Positions 3,190-22,759 of a DNA stretch of 22,805 nucleotides are shown here, piece after piece. The notes under the pieces were generated by a model. That model was not told the DNA's origin. It did not search any database and worked only from the letters and a program-made list of their open reading frames with translations. This DNA is from a virus. Both the position numbers and the translations under genes were made by a program. Numbering within the stretch: the stretch's first letter is position 1; each line of letters begins with the position of its first letter. Where the stretch lies: the IMG/VR virus record IMGVR_UViG_3300043448_000595, positions 1 through 22,805 of that record. One strand, given 5' to 3'.

Positions 3190-3652
3190 GGGGCAATTCG
3201 GACATAGCAGACAAATTGAAAAAATACTTTGTGATATGCGCCACAATCGTGGGTCGATATGTGCGCTCTATCCTAAATGTCCGATTTCGTTTTAGGTGTG
3301 TATCATACAAAATAAAAATATATTAACATTTTAGAAAACTTGATTTTTTAGTTGATCAAAAAAAAGTTGGCGGGAACTATTGACCTAACAATTTTTCATA
3401 TGTTACCATTAAGACCTTGAAGAGTTTTGGAGATAATATCAAGGGGTCTACTTCAAGATGTGACGGGAATGGAATATTCTCAGACATAAAGCTTTAACCG
3501 ATGAAATGCGAATTTATAACTTGACATTTTCGGGGTTCCTAAAATTACTGTTTTAGGGGTATAGGGGTTATTATGTTCTGGGAATGCCAATATTAGTTAT
3601 TACTACATATTAGAGATTCTTTTATGTGGGTTTTTATTTTAAGGCGGAAGCA
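3190..3652. other. Gene-free stretch between opposed transcription units
   Basis: I see no convincing gene here. It holds a copy of AATTCGGACATA (3195-3206, also at 1123-1134) and a promoter-like TTGACC with an 18-base spacer to TACCAT (3380-3409) on the plus strand. CTTGAAG (3416-3422) pairs with CTTCAAG (3451-3457) just after it. There is also TTGACA at 3521-3526 without a good -10, and a CCTAAAA/TTTTAGG inverted repeat near 3539-3558. A leader or non-coding RNA from 3416 is possible but weakly supported. Confidence 0.4.
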
Positions 3653-3844
3653 ATGGCTAAATTCAAACATGAATCTACCAATAGGAAAGTTCTTGCAACT
3701 AAAGAATATATCCAGAATGACTGGAAGCAAATAACCTGTATATATCCAAGAAAATGTGATATTTGTTCAGCTTGGATCAATAAGCATGAAAAAGTTCTAT
3801 GGAATATACATTCCAAAAATATCATGCATATAGACTGTATATAA
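3653..3844 (+). CDS. 63-residue basic protein with a CxxC motif
   Basis: The protein begins MAKFKHESTNRKVLATKEYI. It is basic in its first half, has CDIC in the middle and ends HIDCI, so one small zinc site is possible. The ATG at 3653 is chosen because AAGGCGGAAG lies just upstream; an earlier in-frame GTG at 3626 would cover that site. It is the first plus-strand gene after the gene-free region and lies 59 bases before the HNH gene. It may be a DNA- or RNA-binding protein, but I recognise no family. Confidence 0.6.
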   Translation: MAKFKHESTNRKVLATKEYIQNDWKQITCIYPRKCDICSAWINKHEKVLWNIHSKNIMHIDCI

Positions 3845-4222: not shown

Positions 4223-4963
4223 ATGACATACAAAAAAATTAAATTTATACCAAATAATGAATTTACTGAAAAAGTAGAATTGCCACCAACAAACGCAGGA
4301 AGATCGATACCAGATTGGTATAAAAATACTTCTCAGTTTTATATGGATGGTAAAGAGTATCACGATGTCGTAAAAGTTCATAAAGACTCTTTTAACTCAA
4401 AGCAGTCCACTGTGCATGCTTCCATGAAGCTATGTCAGCCATTCATAGATGCACTTACATCTGGATATATAGTAAGACTACCTACATCAATAATGGTCAT
4501 TAAAGATAACTACGGACAGTCTGTTTTTAAATGGCAGACAGCCATGGATTTGGTAGACTTTCAAGATAATGCAGTTCTAGGACATTTTAAAGCTCCAGAA
4601 GGGTATAATCCTCAATTTTTTAGATGGATAAATATGTGGAAAATACAGACACCTCCAGGATATAGTTCTTTGTTTACTCATCCATTTAATAGATTTGATC
4701 TTCCATTCACTACTCTTACTGGAATAGTGGATACAGACTTACATCCTAATCCAGTAATATTGCCATTTTTTATAAAAAATGATTTTGAAGGAATTATAGA
4801 AGAGGGAACTCCAATAGCTCAAATTATTCCATTTAAAAGAGATAACTGGGAATCTGAATTATTGACTTCAGATAGTTCTCAAAAGTATGGCACAGATATA
4901 ATTAGAAACTCATTTGTAAGAACTTATAAGAAGAAGTTCTGGTCTAAAAAGATATATAAATAA
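4223..4963 (+). CDS. DUF6065-like protein, unknown function
   Basis: This is a 246-residue soluble protein. Landmarks are PDWYKN near residue 30, a Cys-Gln-Pro-Phe stretch near 71 followed by GYIVRLP, then TPPGYSSLFTHPFNR (about 144-158), DLPFTTLTGIVDTD and EEGTPIAQIIPFKRD. This order matches my memory of the DUF6065 family, found in phages and in bacterial gene clusters often near 2-oxoglutarate oxygenases. I could not check this against a database. The fold and reaction are unknown to me. It has its own promoter and a leaderless start, and stands alone, ending just before a convergent small RNA. A weaker alternative is a phage structural protein. Confidence 0.65.
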   Translation: MTYKKIKFIPNNEFTEKVELPPTNAGRSIPDWYKNTSQFYMDGKEYHDVVKVHKDSFNSKQSTVHASMKLCQPFIDALTSGYIVRLPTSIMVIKDNYGQSVFKWQTAMDLVDFQDNAVLGHFKAPEGYNPQFFRWINMWKIQTPPGYSSLFTHPFNRFDLPFTTLTGIVDTDLHPNPVILPFFIKNDFEGIIEEGTPIAQIIPFKRDNWESELLTSDSSQKYGTDIIRNSFVRTYKKKFWSKKIYK

Positions 4964-4966
4964 AGC

Positions 4967-5057
4967 AAAAATCCCATTCGGAGGCGGATCCAAATGGGAC
5001 TTGCTGCATTTACATGCATCTTATGTGGGAGCAAGTGGGATGCTACAACCACATAAG
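4967..5057 (-). ncRNA. Putative phage small RNA with three hairpins
   Basis: From a consensus minus-strand promoter the RNA would start near 5057. Hairpin 1 pairs CTTATGTGG with CCACATAAG (5057-5049 with 5028-5020) and has an inner AGCA/TGCT stem. Hairpin 2 is TGCAT-GTAA-ATGCA (5018-5005), capped by a GNRA-type GUAA tetraloop. Hairpin 3 pairs TCCCATT with AATGGGA (4999-4972) and is followed by five Us, an intrinsic terminator. The 14-base loop of hairpin 3 contains UCCGCCUCC, complementary to AGGCGGA in the ribosome binding sites of the genes at 3653 and 7516. No reading frame fits. Antisense control of translation is inference. Confidence 0.7.
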
Positions 5058-5063
5058 AACTCT

Positions 5064-5092
5064 ATTGTAAAATAATACTTTTTCTATGTCAA
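5064..5092 (-). promoter_or_regulatory. Promoter of the putative small RNA
   Basis: TTGACA (5092-5087), 17-base spacer, TACAAT (5069-5064). Transcription would begin at or just before the first base of hairpin 1, near 5057. It also lies downstream of the 5098-6268 operon, so read-through from there could reach the same terminator. Confidence 0.75.
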
Positions 5093-5097
5093 GAACT

Positions 5098-5316
5098 TTA
5101 TGAGGCGGGATCTGAAGAGTCTTCTTCAGCCTTATATGAAGGCATTGGTCCTAGTATATATCCTTGATCATGATAGTTGACTAATTTGGCTACATCATCG
5201 CTGCCGACGATTTTGTTTGCTATCAGCACTAATACGTCGTATATGCGAGATAGCATAATATAGTTGACCATATCTAGGTTATCTTCGATATTCTCTTTAT
5301 TCTCGTTATTGTCCAT
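5098..5316 (-). CDS. 72-residue conserved phage protein (YDVLxxIANK type)
   Basis: The start at 5316 (MDNNENKENIEDNL) is chosen because GGGGAGGCCTG lies just upstream; a longer frame starts in a region without a site and would overlap another gene. The core LSRIYDVLVLIANKI and GYILGPMPSY resemble a short protein I recall next to lysis genes in phages of actinobacteria, but its role is unknown. The C-terminus is acidic (EEDSSDPAS). It is the last gene of the four-gene lysin operon, and its start overlaps the end of the gene before it by 11 bases. Confidence 0.75.
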   Translation of the reverse strand: MDNNENKENIEDNLDMVNYIMLSRIYDVLVLIANKIVGSDDVAKLVNYHDQGYILGPMPSYKAEEDSSDPAS

Positions 5317-7464: not shown

Positions 7465-7515
7465 TAGAGTCTCACAAATTTTAAATTAACCGTTTAAGGC
7501 GGAGAAAGAGTTGTT

Positions 7516-9450
7516 ATGTTAAAAGTTATTGAAAACCCCTACGAAAATTTTATTGCCCTGTCCCGATATGCAAGATGGATTCCAGAAGAGAATCGTCGAG
7601 AGACTTGGGGTGAAACAGTAGATCGTTATTTCAATTTCATGCTTAATCATTTGGCAAAGAACTACAACTATACTCCAGATCCTAAGTTTGTAGAAGAACT
7701 TAAGAACGCTGTCTATGATAGAAACGTTATGCCATCTATGCGGTCTGTAATGACTGCAGGTGCTGCATTAGATAGAGACCATGTTGCAGGATATAACTGT
7801 TCATTTGTTCCAGTAGACAATCCACGATCATTTGATGAGACAATGTATATCTTGATGTGTGGAACTGGTGTTGGATTCTCTGTTGAGTATAAGTACGTTA
7901 ATAAACTTCCTGCCGTCCCAGAATCATTTGAGAAGTCTACAACGGTTATTGTAGTTGAAGATTCAAAGACTGGATGGGCTAAGGCTTATCGTGAACTTCT
8001 TGCAATGCTTTGGGCAGGACAAATTCCTTCTATTGATGTATCAAAGCTTCGTCCAGCAGGTGCACGTCTTAAGACAATGGGAGGCCGCTCTTCAGGACCA
8101 CAACCATTGATTAATCTTTTTGATTTTACTATTGCTAAGTTTAAAGCAGCAGCAGGTCGTCAATTGAAACCTATTGAAGCTCACGATATAATGTGTAAGA
8201 TTGGTGAAATCGTTGTTGTTGGCGGAGTTCGTCGTTCTGCTATGATTTCTTTGTCTAATATTAATGACATTGAGATGGCTGCAGCAAAATCAGGTAACTG
8301 GTGGGAAAATAATTCACAACGTGCCCTTTCAAATAATTCAGTTGCGTATTCTCGTAAACCAGAAATGGAACAGTTTATTGCAGAATGGAAAAACCTATAT
8401 GATTCTAAATCGGGAGAACGAGGCATATACAATGTGGCTGCTGCTCAAAAGCAGGCAGCAAGATGGGGACGTAGAGACCCTGAAATCCATTACGGAACCA
8501 ACCCTTGCTCAGAGATTATCCTCAGACCTTACCAATTTTGCAACCTTTCTGAAGTTGTAATTCGTGAAAAGGACACAAAGAAAGATATTGAAAGAAAAGT
8601 AGCCTTTGCTACTATTCTTGGTACTTGGCAATCAACACTAACAGACTTTAAGTATCTTCGTAAGGTATGGAAAGATAATACAGAAGAAGAGCGTTTGCTT
8701 GGTGTGTCCATCACAGGACAGTTTGGACATAAGTTTATGTCTGGACAAGAAAATATAAATGACCTTGGTAAATTCTTGAATAACCTTAGAGATATAGCTA
8801 GAGCATGGAATAAGGAAGAAGCAGAAACTCTTGGAATCAACCCTTCTGCAGCAATTACCTGCGTTAAGCCATCAGGAACTGTTTCACAGTTAACTGGCGT
8901 ATCTTCAGGAATGCATGCATGGCATTCACCATACTATATTCGCACAGTTCGTGGAGACAAGAAAGATCCTCTATCTACATTTTTAAAGGAAGTCGGAATT
9001 CCAGTAGAAGATGATTTCATGAAGCCAAACGATACCTACGTATTTTCATTCCCAGTAAAAGCACCAGAGGGTGCAATTGTTCGTGATGATCTTACGGCTA
9101 TTGATCATTTGAATACATGGCTTGTTTATCAGCGTGAATGGTGTGAGCATAAGCCATCTATTACTGTGTCTGTTAAAGAAGATGAGTGGATGGAAGTTGG
9201 TGCTTGGGTATATAAGCACTTTGATGAAGTATCAGGTATTTCATTCCTGCCCCATTCAGATCACTCATACAAGCAGGCTCCATATCAGGAAGTTACGGAA
9301 ACAGAATACCTAGAACTTCTTGCTAAGATGCCGTCTTCAATTCGCTGGGAAGATTTATCTTTCTATGAGACAGAAGATGGAACAAGCGGAACTCAAACTC
9401 TTGCCTGTACTTCAGATGGCAATTGTGAGATTGTAGACATTTCCGCATAA
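7516..9450 (+). CDS. nrdJ: Adenosylcobalamin-dependent ribonucleotide reductase (class II)
   Basis: This 644-residue enzyme reduces ribonucleotides to deoxyribonucleotides for phage DNA synthesis. C95 (GYNCSF) and C342 (QFCNLSE) correspond to the disulfide-forming pair. NPCSEI puts the radical-carrying C331 and E333 in the active site, and KPSGTVSQLTG (451-461) lies in the barrel. The tail ends in a C-x5-C pair (C631, C637) for re-reduction. The order matches the monomeric Lactobacillus-type enzyme, which as I recall has about 740 residues, so this is a compact form. No activase or radical-SAM partner is present, as expected for a B12 enzyme. The host must supply cobalamin. It has its own promoter and ribosome binding site. 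Confidence 0.95.
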   Translation: MLKVIENPYENFIALSRYARWIPEENRRETWGETVDRYFNFMLNHLAKNYNYTPDPKFVEELKNAVYDRNVMPSMRSVMTAGAALDRDHVAGYNCSFVPVDNPRSFDETMYILMCGTGVGFSVEYKYVNKLPAVPESFEKSTTVIVVEDSKTGWAKAYRELLAMLWAGQIPSIDVSKLRPAGARLKTMGGRSSGPQPLINLFDFTIAKFKAAAGRQLKPIEAHDIMCKIGEIVVVGGVRRSAMISLSNINDIEMAAAKSGNWWENNSQRALSNNSVAYSRKPEMEQFIAEWKNLYDSKSGERGIYNVAAAQKQAARWGRRDPEIHYGTNPCSEIILRPYQFCNLSEVVIREKDTKKDIERKVAFATILGTWQSTLTDFKYLRKVWKDNTEEERLLGVSITGQFGHKFMSGQENINDLGKFLNNLRDIARAWNKEEAETLGINPSAAITCVKPSGTVSQLTGVSSGMHAWHSPYYIRTVRGDKKDPLSTFLKEVGIPVEDDFMKPNDTYVFSFPVKAPEGAIVRDDLTAIDHLNTWLVYQREWCEHKPSITVSVKEDEWMEVGAWVYKHFDEVSGISFLPHSDHSYKQAPYQEVTETEYLELLAKMPSSIRWEDLSFYETEDGTSGTQTLACTSDGNCEIVDISA

Positions 9451-13371: not shown

Positions 13372-13740
13372 GTGCCAGATTACACATCGTTAGCAACAGA
13401 AATTAATGCGATTAAGTCTGAGATTGCGGCATCCGTTGCTGCAAGCACATACACAGCACAGGATCTTGTTTATCTAGCATCAGCGCTAGAAACACTTGGC
13501 GGGATGCTTGGAGTTACAGATATTGTTGGAGCAACTGCAGATAAAATTACGCAGATTAATACAACAACCACAACTTCATTGGCATCTATCGAATCTGCTA
13601 GATCTTCATCTGTAGCGGATGTAAACTTAGAACGTACAAGCGCATTAGGAGCAATTACAACTTTGAAGGACTCTGCAATGAATCAAATTGCTGGTGCTTC
13701 AGCAAATTTCAATGTATTATTTATAGGGAGTATGATGTAG
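13372..13740 (+). CDS. Coiled-coil/helical fibre protein, cassette copy A
   Basis: This 122-residue protein has a GTG start right after the preceding stop. It is almost all helical: an N-terminal NAIKSEI stretch, SALETLGGMLGVTDIVGATADKI, then heptad-like ESARSSSVADVNLERTSALG and a short hydrophobic end. It is a clear paralogue of the 120-residue protein at 17881-18243, sharing the LGxLLGVxDIVxATAxKI and ERTSALGAITT segments. A stalk or chaperone-like trimeriser in the adhesin complex is plausible. The upstream GGAG is about ten bases away. Confidence 0.7.
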   Translation: MPDYTSLATEINAIKSEIAASVAASTYTAQDLVYLASALETLGGMLGVTDIVGATADKITQINTTTTTSLASIESARSSSVADVNLERTSALGAITTLKDSAMNQIAGASANFNVLFIGSMM

Positions 13741-13741
13741 T

Positions 13742-14077
13742 ATGGCAATTAATTATAAAATTTTAGGACAGGTTGTGCCATCGGCAGTAAATACCTGGAC
13801 ACAACTTTATCCATGCCCATCAGGGAAACAAGCAGTTTGCTCATCTCTGACAGTGGCAAATCTAACAGCGGATGATATTCTATATCGTGTTCGCATTCGT
13901 AAGGCAAATGAGGCTGCTAATGATAAGCAGTACATCGTATATGACACAGCAGCAGCTGGTGGAGTTTCACAAGCACTACAACTCTCTCTAACTCTTTCGG
14001 CAGATGATCGTGTAGAAATATATGCACCATCTACATCAATTGCTTTTAATCTATTTGGTTCGGAGGTTGACGTATAA
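13742..14077 (+). CDS. Small beta protein of the adhesin cassette, copy A
   Basis: This 111-residue protein begins MAINYKILGQVVPSAVNTW and ends NLFGSEVDV. The paralogue at 18247-18579 begins MAIRYKVLGQKSPAAN and ends SVFGTEIDA, with matching strands between (SSLTVANLT / SSIVVANRD; DDRVEIYA / DDRLTVRS). It is likely a beta sandwich that connects or caps a fibre. Its stop overlaps the next start (TAATG), so it is coupled to the adhesin gene. Confidence 0.7.
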   Translation: MAINYKILGQVVPSAVNTWTQLYPCPSGKQAVCSSLTVANLTADDILYRVRIRKANEAANDKQYIVYDTAAAGGVSQALQLSLTLSADDRVEIYAPSTSIAFNLFGSEVDV

Positions 14078-15207
14078 TGCCAGGATTTAATACTATCCCA
14101 ACATCTGCAGGCGGCGGTGGATTACCAAATATGACTTTTATAGGAGCAGTTCATCTATCTACATATAATCGTTCATGGGCACAGGCAGGAACAGCTGGAA
14201 TTTATGCAATGTATTCTGCAAATCAGGAAACTGGTTACATATATTTTGTTGGAAATGGAGTAAGTACTGGACTTCCAATGAATCGTGTAGGAAATATTAC
14301 TCATGCTTTTACAAGAATAGATATTATTGGATCAACAAATGACATGGCTTGTTTATATAAAGCAAAAGTTAAAACAACAACTGTTTATAATAACCCATTT
14401 GATGCAGACCCATCGATTGGTAAAACTGCACTTGGAGCGGATGCGATTACTGCATATTTTCAATTTAATAGATCTTCTTTTGGTTTAAGACATACTGGAA
14501 ATGGTACTTTTTCATTGCCATCAACTGCAACTCCATTAATAAATTTATTAGTTGTTGGCGGTGGCGCAGGTGGTGGGCATACACACTGTGGCGCAGGCGG
14601 CGGCGGTGGTGGAATTATAAGGTTAACAGGATTTCCTGGAACTGGAAGTCCAGCAATAACTATTGGAGGAGGATCATCTCACCAAGGGCAAGGCGGCACA
14701 ACATATTTTGGTAACGTTTATGCAATAGGTGGAGGTTTTGGTGGGGACCATAGCTATAATGCTGGAAACGGCGCAAATGGTGGAGGAGCTCCTGGACATA
14801 GAGGTACATCTACTGGTGGATCTGGAACGGTACAGACATCTGGAACAGGACTTGGAACAGTAGGAACTCCAGCATATTATGGCGGTCACAACGGAGGTTC
14901 TAGTGCTGGTGCTGATACACAACAATCTGCTGGTGGCGGCGGCGGAGGCGGAGGTGCAGCAGGTGGCGCTGGTACAACTTCTACTTATGGAGTAGGAGGA
15001 ATTGGTCACGTTTCTGATATTAGTGGAAATGCAACCTATTATTCACATGGAGGAGATGGTGGTCGTGCCAATACCAATAATCCACAAAGTTTTGGAGTTA
15101 CTTATAGTCAGTATTATGGCTCTGGGGGAAGAGGTGCTGGTCATCAGGGTTCAGGATATACAAATGGTACAAATGGAGTAGTTGAAGCGAGGTACTTTAT
15201 ATCATGA
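14077..15207 (+). CDS. Glycine-rich receptor-binding adhesin, copy A
   Basis: This 376-residue protein has an N-terminal domain of about 150 residues with TYNRSWAQAGTAG and YIYFVGNG. A glycine-rich domain of about 200 residues follows, with runs such as GGGGGG near 165-175 and 285-295, interrupted by His, Asn, Ser and Tyr. It ends VVEARYFIS. Glycine-rich tip adhesins such as gp38 of T4-like phages pack as polyglycine II helices, and the loops define host range; this is an analogy, not homology I can prove. The paralogue is at 18579-19655. It starts on the preceding stop and its end overlaps the next start (ATGA). Confidence 0.75.
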   Translation: MPGFNTIPTSAGGGGLPNMTFIGAVHLSTYNRSWAQAGTAGIYAMYSANQETGYIYFVGNGVSTGLPMNRVGNITHAFTRIDIIGSTNDMACLYKAKVKTTTVYNNPFDADPSIGKTALGADAITAYFQFNRSSFGLRHTGNGTFSLPSTATPLINLLVVGGGAGGGHTHCGAGGGGGGIIRLTGFPGTGSPAITIGGGSSHQGQGGTTYFGNVYAIGGGFGGDHSYNAGNGANGGGAPGHRGTSTGGSGTVQTSGTGLGTVGTPAYYGGHNGGSSAGADTQQSAGGGGGGGGAAGGAGTTSTYGVGGIGHVSDISGNATYYSHGGDGGRANTNNPQSFGVTYSQYYGSGGRGAGHQGSGYTNGTNGVVEARYFIS

Positions 15208-15494
15208 AAAATTATGCAAAAATTATTGATAATACTGTTGTAAATATAGTTGTTGGAGAAGAATCTGAACTTAACACACAAAGTGGATTACATATTGAAA
15301 TAACAGAAGAAACAAATGTTGCAAGAATAGGCGATACATACAGTTCAGAAATAAATAAGTTTATAACACCCAAACCATATGAATCCTGGACATTAAATAA
15401 TATCAGTGGAATTTGGGAGGCTCCAACAGAAAAACCATCTGACGGTTTTTATAGCTGGAACGAAGAAGACCAAGTTTGGATTAAAGTTTCTTAA
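15204..15494 (+). CDS. Small YPSW-type fibre accessory protein, copy A
   Basis: This 96-residue protein begins MKNYAKIIDNTVVNIVVGEE. It has a beta start, an IGDTYSSEINKF region, the motif KPYESWTLN, then GIWEAP and a Trp-rich end (YSWNEEDQVW). The same order (FxxxKPYPSWxLD, P..., YxWDE...W) is found in many small phage proteins beside adhesins, and in the paralogue at 19652-19969. A tail-fibre assembly or attachment role is likely but unproven. The start overlaps the adhesin stop. Confidence 0.7.
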   Translation: MKNYAKIIDNTVVNIVVGEESELNTQSGLHIEITEETNVARIGDTYSSEINKFITPKPYESWTLNNISGIWEAPTEKPSDGFYSWNEEDQVWIKVS

Positions 15495-17880: not shown

Positions 17881-18243
17881 ATGACTGCATATAACAGCTT
17901 AAACACTCAAATCGAGGCCATGAAGACCAAGATGACTACCATGGTTGCCGCAGCCACAACATCTCAAGACATGATTTACATGGCAAAGGCTTTGGGAGAA
18001 CTTGGTACTCTACTTGGAGTAGATGACATAGTTGATGCTACAGCAGCAAAGATCACAGAACTAGAAACAAAAAGAACTACATCTTTAGCAGATCTAGAAT
18101 CATCTAGATCAGCATCAGTAGCAGATGTTAACTCAGAGAGAACTTCTGCTTTAGGTGCAATCACAACAGCGAGAGATTCAGCACTTAATCAAATTTCAGG
18201 AGCGGGATCAACAATTCATCCCTTCCTATTGGCAGGAGTATAA
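17881..18243 (+). CDS. Coiled-coil/helical fibre protein, cassette copy B
   Basis: This 120-residue protein begins MTAYNSLNTQIEAMKTKM. It is all-helical, with KALGELGTLLGVDDIVDATAAKI, SSRSASVADVNSERTSALG and a hydrophobic end (HPFLLAGV). It is the second copy of the 13372-13740 gene, with the same length to within two residues and matching central segments. It may form a trimeric stalk. Its ribosome binding site is GAAGGTGATA. Confidence 0.7.
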   Translation: MTAYNSLNTQIEAMKTKMTTMVAAATTSQDMIYMAKALGELGTLLGVDDIVDATAAKITELETKRTTSLADLESSRSASVADVNSERTSALGAITTARDSALNQISGAGSTIHPFLLAGV

Positions 18244-18246
18244 AAA

Positions 18247-18579
18247 ATGGCAATTCGTTATAAGGTATTAGGACAAAAGTCCCCAGCAGCAAACACAGAA
18301 TGGGATATTTATCAAGTAAGTGGAACTAAAGATGCTGTTGTAAGCTCAATTGTAGTAGCAAATAGAGATTCAAATTCAGCAACATATAGAATTGCTGTTC
18401 GCCCAGATAATGCAACATTAACAGATGATATGTATATTGCATATGATGTACAAGTTGATTCAAATATGTCTGTTGCTTTAAATCTTGGAATAACAATGAA
18501 TACAGACGATAGATTAACTGTAAGATCTTCGTCAGGATTAGTAACATTTTCAGTATTTGGAACGGAGATTGATGCATAA
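18247..18579 (+). CDS. Small beta protein of the adhesin cassette, copy B
   Basis: This 110-residue protein begins MAIRYKVLGQKSPAANTEW and ends FSVFGTEIDA, a paralogue of the 13742-14077 protein. The alternating hydrophobic pattern suggests a beta sandwich. No strong ribosome binding site is visible (start four bases after the previous stop), so it probably relies on coupling. Its stop overlaps the adhesin start (TAATG). Confidence 0.7.
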   Translation: MAIRYKVLGQKSPAANTEWDIYQVSGTKDAVVSSIVVANRDSNSATYRIAVRPDNATLTDDMYIAYDVQVDSNMSVALNLGITMNTDDRLTVRSSSGLVTFSVFGTEIDA

Positions 18580-19655
18580 TGGGAATTCAAGCATTTGTAC
18601 CATCAGGTGGCGGAGGAACTCCAGGATTTAGTTATATAGCTTCTATTCGCATGGAAACATACAACAGATCATGGGCACAAGCAGGAGCTGCAGGAAACTA
18701 CGTAGTAACATCAAATCTTGCTAACTCAGGTTATGTATATTTTGTTGGTGCAACAACTACAGGCGGTGCTTTAAATAAAGTTGTTAATGTTGCACACTCT
18801 TTTAATACAATTAATATTATAGCCCCAGCAAATGACTATATTTCATTATTTAAAGCAGCAGTAAAATCAACAACAGTTTTTGCAAACCCATTTGCAGGCT
18901 TTGCATCTTTCCCATCTACTATTACAACATCTGGAAACTTTGTTTTGCCAACATCTGCATTACCACTAGTAGATGCATTAATTGTAGGTTGTGGAGGATC
19001 TGGTGGTGGACATCATGCTGGCGGTGGCGGCGGTGGCGGAGCAGTTATTAAGTTAAATGGATATCAGGCAGTAGGAACAACTGCAATTACAATTGGTACT
19101 GCTGGAGGCCATGACAACACCCATGGATACAACGGTGGCGCAACATATTTTGGAAATGTTTACGCAATTGGCGGAACTGGAGGCTCTGGAGGCTCTAGAT
19201 GGACTGGAGCAGACCAGGGTGCAAATGGTGGCGGATCAAATGGACACTCTAGACAAACATACTCAGACGGAATATCTTCTGGAAGCGCACATTATTCAAA
19301 AGTTACAGCAGGATTTGGAACACAATCTGGAACCGCTTCTTATGTTGGCGGACATCGTGGCGGAGGCCTTGGTGGAAGTCACGCTGGTGGAGGCGGAGGA
19401 GGAGCTGGAGCAGTAGGATCTGATGGATCAGGATCTCATGGAGGAGATGGCGGAGCTGGACATGTTTCAAATATAACTGGCTCCAATGTCACCTATGCTC
19501 CTGGAGGCGGAGGCGGAACTCATTCTCCAAATAATGGACACGGAGGTAATCCTGGTGGTTATGGATCAGGAGGTCATGGTGCACACAATGGACCATCAAA
19601 TAATGCATCTGGCGGCGGACAAGGAATAGTAGTTGTGAGGTATTATATAGCATGA
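18579..19655 (+). CDS. Glycine-rich receptor-binding adhesin, copy B
   Basis: This 358-residue protein shares its N-terminal domain with the copy at 14077 (TYNRSWAQAGAAG, YVYFVGAT, AAVKSTTVFANPF). Its own glycine-rich, His- and Asn-containing domain then ends VVVRYYIA. The glycine domain is more diverged than the N-terminal domain, as expected if the tip sets host range. The start overlaps the upstream stop and the end overlaps the next start (ATGA). Confidence 0.75.
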   Translation: MGIQAFVPSGGGGTPGFSYIASIRMETYNRSWAQAGAAGNYVVTSNLANSGYVYFVGATTTGGALNKVVNVAHSFNTINIIAPANDYISLFKAAVKSTTVFANPFAGFASFPSTITTSGNFVLPTSALPLVDALIVGCGGSGGGHHAGGGGGGGAVIKLNGYQAVGTTAITIGTAGGHDNTHGYNGGATYFGNVYAIGGTGGSGGSRWTGADQGANGGGSNGHSRQTYSDGISSGSAHYSKVTAGFGTQSGTASYVGGHRGGGLGGSHAGGGGGGAGAVGSDGSGSHGGDGGAGHVSNITGSNVTYAPGGGGGTHSPNNGHGGNPGGYGSGGHGAHNGPSNNASGGGQGIVVVRYYIA

Positions 19656-19969
19656 AAACATGGGCAGAAATTGATATTAATAATAAAGTAATTAATACTA
19701 TACTTGCATCAGATTCTTTTATTATAAGTATCCCAGGTACTTTTATTGAGTGTACTGATTCTACAGGATTAGGATCTATTGGTATGACATATAATAAGGA
19801 AAAAAATAAGTTTATACATGCAAAACCATATCCATCCTGGTCCTTGGATGAAGAATCTTTAGAGTGGGTTTCTCCAGCAGGAGACAAGCCATCTGACGGT
19901 TCAGCATATACTTGGGATGAAGATAATCAATCTTGGATTAAACTAGAATCAATAAATATAGATCTATAA
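19652..19969 (+). CDS. Small YPSW-type fibre accessory protein, copy B
   Basis: This 105-residue protein begins MKTWAEIDINNKVINTILAS and contains IGMTYNKEKNKF, AKPYPSWSLDEES and YTWDEDNQSWIKL, in the same order as its paralogue at 15204-15494. The acidic and aromatic end suggests a soluble protein that packs against a fibre. It is the last gene of the fibre run; a new promoter follows at once. Confidence 0.7.
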   Translation: MKTWAEIDINNKVINTILASDSFIISIPGTFIECTDSTGLGSIGMTYNKEKNKFIHAKPYPSWSLDEESLEWVSPAGDKPSDGSAYTWDEDNQSWIKLESINIDL

Positions 19970-20063: not shown

Positions 20064-20657
20064 ATGGTTATGAATAATTTAAAAGAAGGAAAATATGTAG
20101 CGCCTGGCATATGTGTCTACGAAAATGTATTAGAAAATCCTCAAAAATACATAGACCTAGCTTTAAAAAATTGTGAATGGCGAGATGCAAAAGTACACGA
20201 TTCTGGAAATCCAGAAGACGTTAAATTAAAGTCTGATGTAAGAAATAATCGTGTTGCACAACTAAATGTAGGTTTCGAACATCCTTTAGAATGGTTTGAA
20301 ATTGGTTCTTTAATATTTAAATATATGAATCAATATGCAAAAGAAAACGAATTTGCATTCGGCGGCCTAGAACCTATTGGAATGCTTCATTATAAAGCGG
20401 GAGAAGGATTTTATATTCCACATGTAGATCATAACGATCTTTCTCCAAGAGTTGCTGCAGCCCTACTTTATCTTAATGATGTAGAAGAAGGCGGAGAAAC
20501 TCATTTTGTAAATTTTGATATTTCAGTAAAACCAAAAGCTGGCACACTAGTTTTATTTCCAGGAAATTATCCATACTTACACGGAGCAAAAACTCCAGTT
20601 AGTAATGATAAATTTGTAATTGTTACATGGTTCCCACCCTCTCAGATAGGTAGATAA
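20064..20657 (+). CDS. 2-oxoglutarate/Fe(II)-dependent oxygenase
   Basis: This 197-residue enzyme couples 2-oxoglutarate decarboxylation to hydroxylation of an unknown substrate. The iron site is HVD (H120, D122) and H173 (YLHGAKTP); the basic residue that holds 2-oxoglutarate is probably K183 (NDKFVIVTWF). GGETHF (143-148) and the double-stranded beta-helix strands match the prolyl-4-hydroxylase-like family common in phages. There is no clear ribosome binding site. A second ATG two codons on could be used. Its stop overlaps the halogenase start (TAATG), so the pair is coupled and likely acts in one pathway. Confidence 0.9.
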   Translation: MVMNNLKEGKYVAPGICVYENVLENPQKYIDLALKNCEWRDAKVHDSGNPEDVKLKSDVRNNRVAQLNVGFEHPLEWFEIGSLIFKYMNQYAKENEFAFGGLEPIGMLHYKAGEGFYIPHVDHNDLSPRVAAALLYLNDVEEGGETHFVNFDISVKPKAGTLVLFPGNYPYLHGAKTPVSNDKFVIVTWFPPSQIGR

Positions 20658-22249
20658 TGATTAATTTAAATAAGATAGTCATCGTTGGCGGAGGCTCCGC
20701 TGGATGGATGTCAGCAGCATCTATGATTAGAGCATTTCCAGATAAGGAAATTGTGGTTATTGAATCCCCCGATTATCCGATCATTGGCGTTGGAGAATCA
20801 ACGCTTGGAGGAATTACGGGATGGGCAAACTGGATTGGCATTGACGAAAAAGATTTTATGCCAGCAACAGATGCCGTATATAAAATGTCTATTAAGTTTA
20901 CAGATTTTTATAAAAAGGATGCAGGCGGATTCCATTATCCATTTGGCAAAGTATTTTTAGACGGAACAGTTAATGGTCTTAATGATTGGTATGTAAAGAA
21001 AGCTAAATTCCCAGAATTAGATGTAGCAGATTATGCTCGTACATTTTTCCCCGCTCTTACATTAGCGGAACAGAATAAGCTATCTTGGAATGAATCAGGT
21101 AAACTAGGTAACTTTAACTTCAAGCAAGATGTTGCTTATCACTTTGATGCTACTAAGTTTGGTCAATGGCTAAAGAATAACTATTGCATTCCTCGTGGAG
21201 TTACAGTAATTCCTTCAACCGTAACAGATGTTACTACAAATGAGGCGGGAATTGAAAGCGTAACAATATCTGACGGCACTAAGATTACAGCAGATCTATT
21301 TATTGATTGTACAGGATTTAAATCAATGCTCCTTGAAGGCGCTCTAGGAGAGCAATGGGATGATTTCTCTCATATGCTTCCAAATAATAGCGCATGGGCT
21401 ACACGTATCCCGTATACAGATATTGAGAAAGAAATGGAGCCATACACCAATTGCACCGCTATCGGTCATGGTTGGGTATGGAATATTCCTTCATGGGAAC
21501 GTATTGGAACAGGGTATGTATTTAGCGACAAGTATATAACACCAGAAGAAGCCTTGCAGGAATTTAAAGATCACCTGCGCTCAGATAAAATGACTGTTCA
21601 TGATCCAAATCGTGATGTTGATTCTTATGAGTATAAGCATATTAAATTCCGTGTCGGAATTCATAAGCGCACATTTGTTAAGAATGTTGTTGCTATTGGA
21701 TTTGCTGCTGGATTCATCGAACCTTTAGAATCTAATGGGCTATTCACAGTTCATGAGTTCTTGGATAAGCTTGTAAAGACATTAAGCCGTGGAACGGTAA
21801 CACAAACAGACCGTGATGTTTATAATATGACTACACGTCGTCAATATCTAGGATTTAAAGAATTTGTTGCCCAACACTATGCTCTTTCAAATAGAACAGA
21901 CACGAAGTATTGGCAAGATATTACAGACAAGGTATTCCAGCCAGATCTTCCAGATCTAAATCCATCTATGGTTGTTGGCTTTAATGATATGGCAGATATT
22001 CATATTAATCGTCAAAGATATGATGGGGTTGGCGGAATCCACTGTATTGCAACAGGACTTAATTATTTCCCAGTAACAGCAGAAACTGTAGATAGATGGA
22101 AGCATTATGATAGAGTGGATTATTACGATTATTGCAAGAATACTTGGTCAACATGGGAGATATTCCGTAAACTTTGGCAGGAAGAAGCAGATGCTTCACC
22201 TACAATGTATCAATGGCTAAAAGAAAATATCCATAATGATAAAGCCTAA
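20657..22249 (+). CDS. Flavin-dependent tryptophan-type halogenase
   Basis: This 530-residue enzyme would use reduced FAD, oxygen and halide to halogenate an aromatic substrate. GGGSAGW (11-17) binds FAD. GVGEST (44-49) and VYKMSIKF (74-81) match the region with the catalytic lysine (K76, equal to K79 of PrnA/RebH). WVWNIP (273-278) is the family's WxWxIP signature, and PLESNG (356-361) matches the segment with the active-site glutamate (E358). Length is typical. Such enzymes need a flavin reductase, not seen here, so the host must supply it. Relatives occur in cyanophages, one of which was shown to act as a halogenase. The substrate is unknown. Confidence 0.92.
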   Translation: MINLNKIVIVGGGSAGWMSAASMIRAFPDKEIVVIESPDYPIIGVGESTLGGITGWANWIGIDEKDFMPATDAVYKMSIKFTDFYKKDAGGFHYPFGKVFLDGTVNGLNDWYVKKAKFPELDVADYARTFFPALTLAEQNKLSWNESGKLGNFNFKQDVAYHFDATKFGQWLKNNYCIPRGVTVIPSTVTDVTTNEAGIESVTISDGTKITADLFIDCTGFKSMLLEGALGEQWDDFSHMLPNNSAWATRIPYTDIEKEMEPYTNCTAIGHGWVWNIPSWERIGTGYVFSDKYITPEEALQEFKDHLRSDKMTVHDPNRDVDSYEYKHIKFRVGIHKRTFVKNVVAIGFAAGFIEPLESNGLFTVHEFLDKLVKTLSRGTVTQTDRDVYNMTTRRQYLGFKEFVAQHYALSNRTDTKYWQDITDKVFQPDLPDLNPSMVVGFNDMADIHINRQRYDGVGGIHCIATGLNYFPVTAETVDRWKHYDRVDYYDYCKNTWSTWEIFRKLWQEEADASPTMYQWLKENIHNDKA

Positions 22250-22741: not shown

Positions 22742-22759
22742 CGGTATAATAGGAGGGAT

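Follow-up and report, generated by a model that had tools for sequence, protein, structure and literature searches.

A conserved phage small RNA predicted to pair with the leaders of DNA-synthesis genes

The window, i.e., the whole 22,805-nt stretch of phage DNA analyzed here (IMG/VR record IMGVR_UViG_3300043448_000595, positions 1 to 22,805), carries on its minus strand a small RNA (sRNA) of about 92 nt whose existence and structure are near certain, in the absence of expression data. Judged from sequence comparison, it is a real RNA family, apparently previously undescribed. With a probability of roughly two in three, and without expression or binding data, we hypothesize that it acts in trans as an antisense RNA, repressing the translation of DNA-synthesis genes encoded by the same phage. 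Computational analysis established the family and its structure, an invariant loop, conserved sites complementary to that loop and the co-occurrence of these sites with the RNA.

Structure, extent and genomic position of the RNA

The element is located in the window as follows:

5064–5092, minus strand: sigma-70-type promoter (TTGACA at 5092–5087, 17-nt spacer, TACAAT at 5069–5064), 11 of 12 positions matching
4965–5057, minus strand: predicted sRNA of about 92 nt, supported by its fold, a covariance model hit of 82.1 bits and covariation
5020–5057, minus strand: hairpin 1, a 9-bp stem, then GG-UUGU-AGC / GCU-C-CC with a bulged UU, and the loop AUCCCACUU
5005–5018, minus strand: hairpin 2, a 5-bp stem with a GUAA (GNRA) tetraloop
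4965–5004, minus strand: hairpin 3, an intrinsic terminator of about 15 bp with a five-U run, found by terminator scan
4981–4990, minus strand: terminator-loop segment GAUCCGCCUC, identical in 47 of 47 homologues

The promoter, the coincidence of its expected start with a 9-bp hairpin and the second hairpin with its GUAA loop had been described in the initial annotation and were all recovered. The 5' end at about 5057, which is inferred from the promoter position rather than from a mapped start, is the first base of the 9-bp stem (5057–5049 with 5028–5020). The terminator and its U-run were likewise correctly recognized, but the stem, described as 7 bp long, extends to about 15 bp, with a GCAAG base and a GGA/UCC top. 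A total of 45 promoter-like hits were found in 12 kb, and the sRNA promoter is among the four that match at 11 of 12 positions. The predicted fold has a minimum free energy of -41.4 kcal/mol (z = -6.9), equalled by none of 200 shuffles, and in the window RNA all six bases of the seed UCCGCC (4988–4983) are predicted to be unpaired with a probability of 1.0. The noncoding assignment is upheld, as indels in the loops of homologues are not multiples of three, which rules out coding. Pairing of ACUUGC in hairpin 1 with GCAAGU, which would form a pseudoknot, was considered and discounted, as relatives such as L002 do not keep it.

The number of IMG/VR contigs with relatives of the sRNA is well above 100. 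When viral contigs were scanned with the terminator sequence, some positions being left open, 9 and later 116 stretches were found, and a scan with hairpin 1 only, leaving the terminator free, yielded 113. In the latter, 69 of 71 distinct sequences retain GGATCCGCCTC; the two exceptions, CGAATCCGCCTTTG and CCGATCCGCCTTGG, keep AUCCGCCU with re-paired flanks. One ATCCGCCT hit, in L043, was discarded as tRNA-like, by inspection only. The hairpin was found in 39 of the 40 loci selected by nrdJ that have at least 4 kb of upstream sequence, and each of 22 large records contains exactly one copy, weak second hits lying on the reverse strand at the same place. Absence of the RNA from fragments G024–G032, G034, G038 and G040–G042, which have no nrdJ region, was disregarded as uninformative; in G036 the contig end is too close to nrdJ.

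In a first alignment of 21 sequences, 98.8% of cells were paired and double changes were detected at 13 pairs. The analysis was extended to 47 rows, consisting of loci selected by the nrdJ protein in which the RNA was located by the model, four loci selected by dnaE and the window; here 97.1% of cells were paired, compensatory double changes affected 25 of 31 pairs, and covariation reached 0.578 compared with at most 0.085 for slid partners. Alignments built with a model are biased towards the structure of that model, which the slid control and the effect size make unimportant here. Double changes were observed at 10 of 11 pairs of hairpin 1 (98% of cells paired in 46 distinct homologues), at all five pairs of hairpin 2 and at 10 of 15 pairs of hairpin 3. 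The tetraloops of hairpin 2 vary between GNRA types (GUAA, GCAA, GAAA) and UUCG or UUAG, on 5-bp stems that differ each time. The terminator loop GATCCGCCTC does not vary among the 47 homologues, while the stems diverge. Because of this covariation, chance can be excluded as an explanation for the structure. A lack of compensatory changes in relatives had been named in the initial annotation as grounds for refutation; such changes are present in all three hairpins.

The proposal that the RNA is undescribed was also supported by the suggested search of Rfam, which returned nothing credible: no family passed the gathering threshold in the window and eight relatives, and only three unrelated chance hits to the sRNA region were obtained at E values up to 10. 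A blastn search of the sRNA against 50,697 phage records gave merely short chance matches, and no description of this sRNA was found in the open-access literature, most subscription papers being outside the scope of the search. The terminator-loop pattern had no hits in 84,980 bacterial and archaeal genomes; thus, an origin from a host gene or a common prophage is not supported.

The sRNA is always situated 3' of a small conserved operon encoding an SLT lysozyme-like protein, small proteins and a PHROG 12271 protein, which runs divergently from the glycosyltransferase gene and nrdJ. At the corresponding position, 37 of 47 homologues have a TTGA-type promoter with 16–18 nt spacing; together with the intrinsic terminator, this independent promoter satisfies one criterion for a trans-acting sRNA. 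In about nine to ten of the 47 the promoter is absent or unclear; several of these copies lie directly 3' of a stop codon and are therefore probably 3'-UTR RNAs. The gene adjacent to the sRNA in the window (4223–4963) encodes a 246-aa protein of PHROG 7084 with a weak DUF6065 match; haloarchaeal tailed viruses and a small number of cyanophages encode related proteins of about 33% identity.

The nearest isolated phages are Streptomyces phages of the Stanwilliamsviridae (LilMartin, BillNye and Mandalore; DnaE 57%, RNR 66%), and WhiB was detected above the Pfam cut-off in 7 of 21 records, with Corynebacterium the only positive among 14 control genomes. On both grounds, the hosts are likely actinobacterial. 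IMG sample numbers and a low G+C content suggest, without verification, that the phages come from freshwater. LilMartin shares the glycosyltransferase–RNR gene order with the window but differs in its divergent small genes. Unlike the window phages, LilMartin and Mandalore gave no significant hit with the sRNA model (best E 0.18), and GGCGGA is absent from those of their leaders that were read.

Complementary sites in the leaders of DNA-synthesis genes

Sites complementary to the seed, and a predicted target, are located in the window as follows:

3642–3648, plus strand: AGGCGGA directly before a 63-aa ORF at 3653, a possible further target, on sequence alone
7497–7503, plus strand: AGGCGGA in the leader of nrdJ, whose start codon is at 7516; complementary to the seed
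7516–9450, plus strand: nrdJ, class II ribonucleotide reductase, predicted target (PHROG 367, E 1.5e-187)

Both AGGCGGA sites had been pointed out earlier, for the genes at 3653 and 7516, as had the complementarity of the terminator loop to this motif. The functional part of the loop, however, is UCCGCC within GAUCCGCCUC and not CCUCC, as the subsequent UCC pairs with GGA. A third suggested target, GGAGGC before the start at 5316, is not tenable: the bases it would require are paired in the sRNA and variable among relatives.

The motif is widely conserved. AGGCGGA or GGGCGGA was found in the nrdJ leaders of all 22 sRNA-bearing records, and [AG]GGCGGA in 69 of 80 nrdJ loci chosen by protein; here GGCGGA lies just upstream of the Shine-Dalgarno (SD) position, and upstream of a second SD-like run. 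For dnaE, encoding DNA polymerase III alpha, the motif is in the SD position in 9 of 9 records, and GGCGGA holds this position in 69 of 78 leaders chosen by protein, which are otherwise diverse and none of which contains AGGAG or GGAGG. A small gene, designated X, has the site at the SD position in 7 of 7 cases, among proteins as little as 39% identical. Neither dnaE nor gene X has another SD in the vicinity of the site. In part of the relatives, dnaB is also preceded by this site, exactly or nearly so. The seed is thus conserved and accessible, and the target sites that it complements are conserved as well, which satisfies a second criterion for a trans-acting sRNA. In predicted leader folds AGGCGGA is only 0.3–0.6 unpaired, and its genome-wide enrichment in leaders is moderate (20 sites, 4.3 expected). 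In some dnaE leaders GGCGGA is also read as Gly-Gly by an overlapping gene upstream, and in five of the nine dnaE leaders without the motif the difference appears to be a synonymous change of Gly-Gly codons.

A small hairpin directly before the nrdJ SD (window 7482–7516) is kept across loci with differing sequences (CCGC..GCGG, CGACUAAGUCG, CUGCCAGAGGGCAG), and a hairpin likewise precedes the nrdJ SD of LilMartin. It may have a regulatory function in its own right; because it persists with other sequences, part of the nrdJ GGCGGA conservation may be structural in origin.

When 79 gene families were ranked by the energy of their duplex with the loop, dnaE came first (mean -14.5 kcal/mol) and nrdJ second (-13.2). 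Among permuted loops, the best value was matched in 3 of 299, the second in 1 of 299 and the joint value in 9 of 2000. The energy ranking was used in place of a strict count of conserved hexamers over the 79 families, which placed GGCGGA in just one family at the strict window and alone is not strong evidence. The hairpin-1 loops, tried as seeds, gave best families that were unrelated and weaker. Duplexes of AGGCGGA with the sRNA loop reach -13 to -16 kcal/mol compared with about -7 for the standard 16S tail, and canonical sites of the AAGGAG type show the reverse order.

The contrasting case is a sister clade of 11 loci, whose nrdJ is 84–90% identical to that of contig C31, itself 78% identical to the nrdJ of the window. 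GGCGGA is found in none of the 11 nrdJ leaders, which mostly carry AGGAG, and no sRNA was detected in the nine loci searched; contig C31 has neither the sRNA nor the nrdJ-leader motif. It had been cautioned that loop matches of this kind would be common by chance, a doubt that is weakened by the invariant loop, the complements conserved in the dnaE and nrdJ leaders and the absence of the nrdJ-leader complement from the sister clade that lacks the RNA. As one clade is compared with one clade, the contrast may represent a single evolutionary event. G023:C31 (L339, L376–L378) is a 110-kb contig in a GTDB MAG labelled as an uncultured cyanobacterium; its dnaE and nrdJ are of phage type, and it probably represents a phage genome that was binned wrongly.

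Proposed mode of action and alternative explanations

Under the antisense hypothesis, most relatives would express the sRNA of about 92 nt from a dedicated host-type promoter, a minority would carry it as the 3' terminus of the operon before it, and two structured hairpins would stabilize it. The rigid terminator hairpin would expose the invariant 6-nt loop UCCGCC within GAUCCGCCUC, which could form 7–9 bp with AGGCGGA, a non-canonical SD-type element in the phage's own leaders. The predicted target set comprises dnaE, nrdJ, small gene X and, in some relatives, dnaB. Pairing would cover or crowd the ribosome-binding site and repress translation, so that, at one stage of infection, DNA-replication enzymes would be kept low or turned off. 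Transcription, loop–leader pairing in the cell, repression and timing are inferences. Pairing in trans with the dnaE and nrdJ leaders is likely, in the absence of binding data, and translation control through the terminator loop, raised in the initial annotation, gains comparative support from the invariant loop and the complements kept in both leaders.

An extension of this hypothesis, which we entertain only tentatively, is a private, nearly orthogonal ribosome-binding code: AGGCGGA is a poor match for the standard 16S tail and a perfect one for the sRNA, and a single RNA would switch the whole DNA-synthesis module on or off. The sRNA loop GGAUCCGCCUC would then resemble an altered copy of the 16S 3' end (GGAUCACCUCC), a likeness that remains speculative.

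Host RNAs, either mRNAs or an rRNA element with GGCGGA, could instead be the true targets, the matches to phage genes being secondary. The sRNA is retained with its loop intact in L316, L329 and L295–L297, where the nrdJ leaders have changed and lost the complement; this fits a host target, since constancy of the loop would be expected if its target lay outside the phage. The host genome is unknown, but the position of dnaE and nrdJ as the two best of 79 phage families and the joint absence of motif and RNA from the sister clade make this explanation unlikely.

The direction of the effect could also be opposite, the sRNA opening the nrdJ hairpin or shielding the mRNA 5' end so that replication genes are turned up. 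Such a role would suit the nrdJ site, which is the 3' arm of the small leader hairpin and lies upstream of another SD-like run, and PreS of phage lambda is described as targeting host dnaN and making conditions optimal for replication of the phage (PMC12197685). The dnaE and gene X sites, however, themselves occupy the SD position with no other SD close by, and covering them should block initiation; activation is thus rather improbable, and repression is the most probable, as yet unproven, direction.

Finally, the constant location at the 3' end of a small operon and the roughly 10 of 47 homologues without a clear promoter, several directly after a stop codon, would be compatible with a structured terminator or 3'-end stabilizer of that operon, with no trans target and a loop kept constant for protein binding or folding, which we consider very improbable since a terminator requires no invariant loop, promoter or two extra conserved hairpins and an unrelated role would not predict complementary dnaE and nrdJ sites.

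Relation to known regulators and further features of the phages

A hallmark of the Rfam family 6C is a pair of hairpin loops that both contain at least six consecutive C. This is not met here, as the loops AUCCCAC... and UCCGCC contain no six-C run, and the 6C covariance model had no match at the gathering threshold in the window or eight relatives. In Mycobacterium, exposed C-rich loops of the actinobacterial 6C/B11 sRNA pair with ribosome-binding sites and repress translation (PMC10470900). The proposed mechanism is similar in that a small structured RNA would direct a loop against ribosome-binding sites. However, 6C/B11 is host-encoded and uses two C-run loops against G tracts, whereas the window sRNA is phage-encoded, carries one mixed loop, UCCGCC, in its terminator, has no Rfam hit and has a specific heptamer partner in replication genes.

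In phage T4, RegA and RegB shut down translation of early mRNAs at initiation regions, RegA acting on about 30 mRNAs and RegB cutting GGAG SD sequences (PMC3014915). The purpose would be comparable, but these regulators are proteins, while the window would rely on RNA base-pairing with a variant SD-type sequence. PreS, a Hfq-dependent trans-acting sRNA of phage lambda, targets host dnaN (reviewed in PMC12197685). It resembles the window sRNA in being phage-encoded and linked to DNA replication and differs in that the latter appears to target the phage's own genes; no sequence relation between the two is known, and the phage sRNA cases covered by that review differ from the present one. The probable actinobacterial hosts are not known to encode Hfq.

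For only a few lytic-phage sRNAs are predicted targets available in addition to a conserved structure with good support. The present one occurs in phages that are abundant in metagenomes inferred to be from freshwater and that probably infect actinobacteria, and it points at two central enzymes of phage DNA synthesis; it would represent an RNA counterpart of T4 RegA and a phage counterpart of mycobacterial 6C/B11.

Several other features of these genomes were recorded. The sequence GGTATAAT is strongly enriched just upstream of genes, mostly without a -35 element (window example at 22743), and may be a late promoter of these phages. Window positions 20064–22249 encode a 2OG-Fe(II) oxygenase and, after it, a member of the tryptophan-halogenase family (PF04820, E 1e-102). 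Two similar gene runs, at 13372–15494 and 17881–19969, contain two small proteins, a glycine-rich tail protein and a short protein in the same order; they look like a duplicated tail-fibre module, and both include many GGCGGA Gly-Gly codons.
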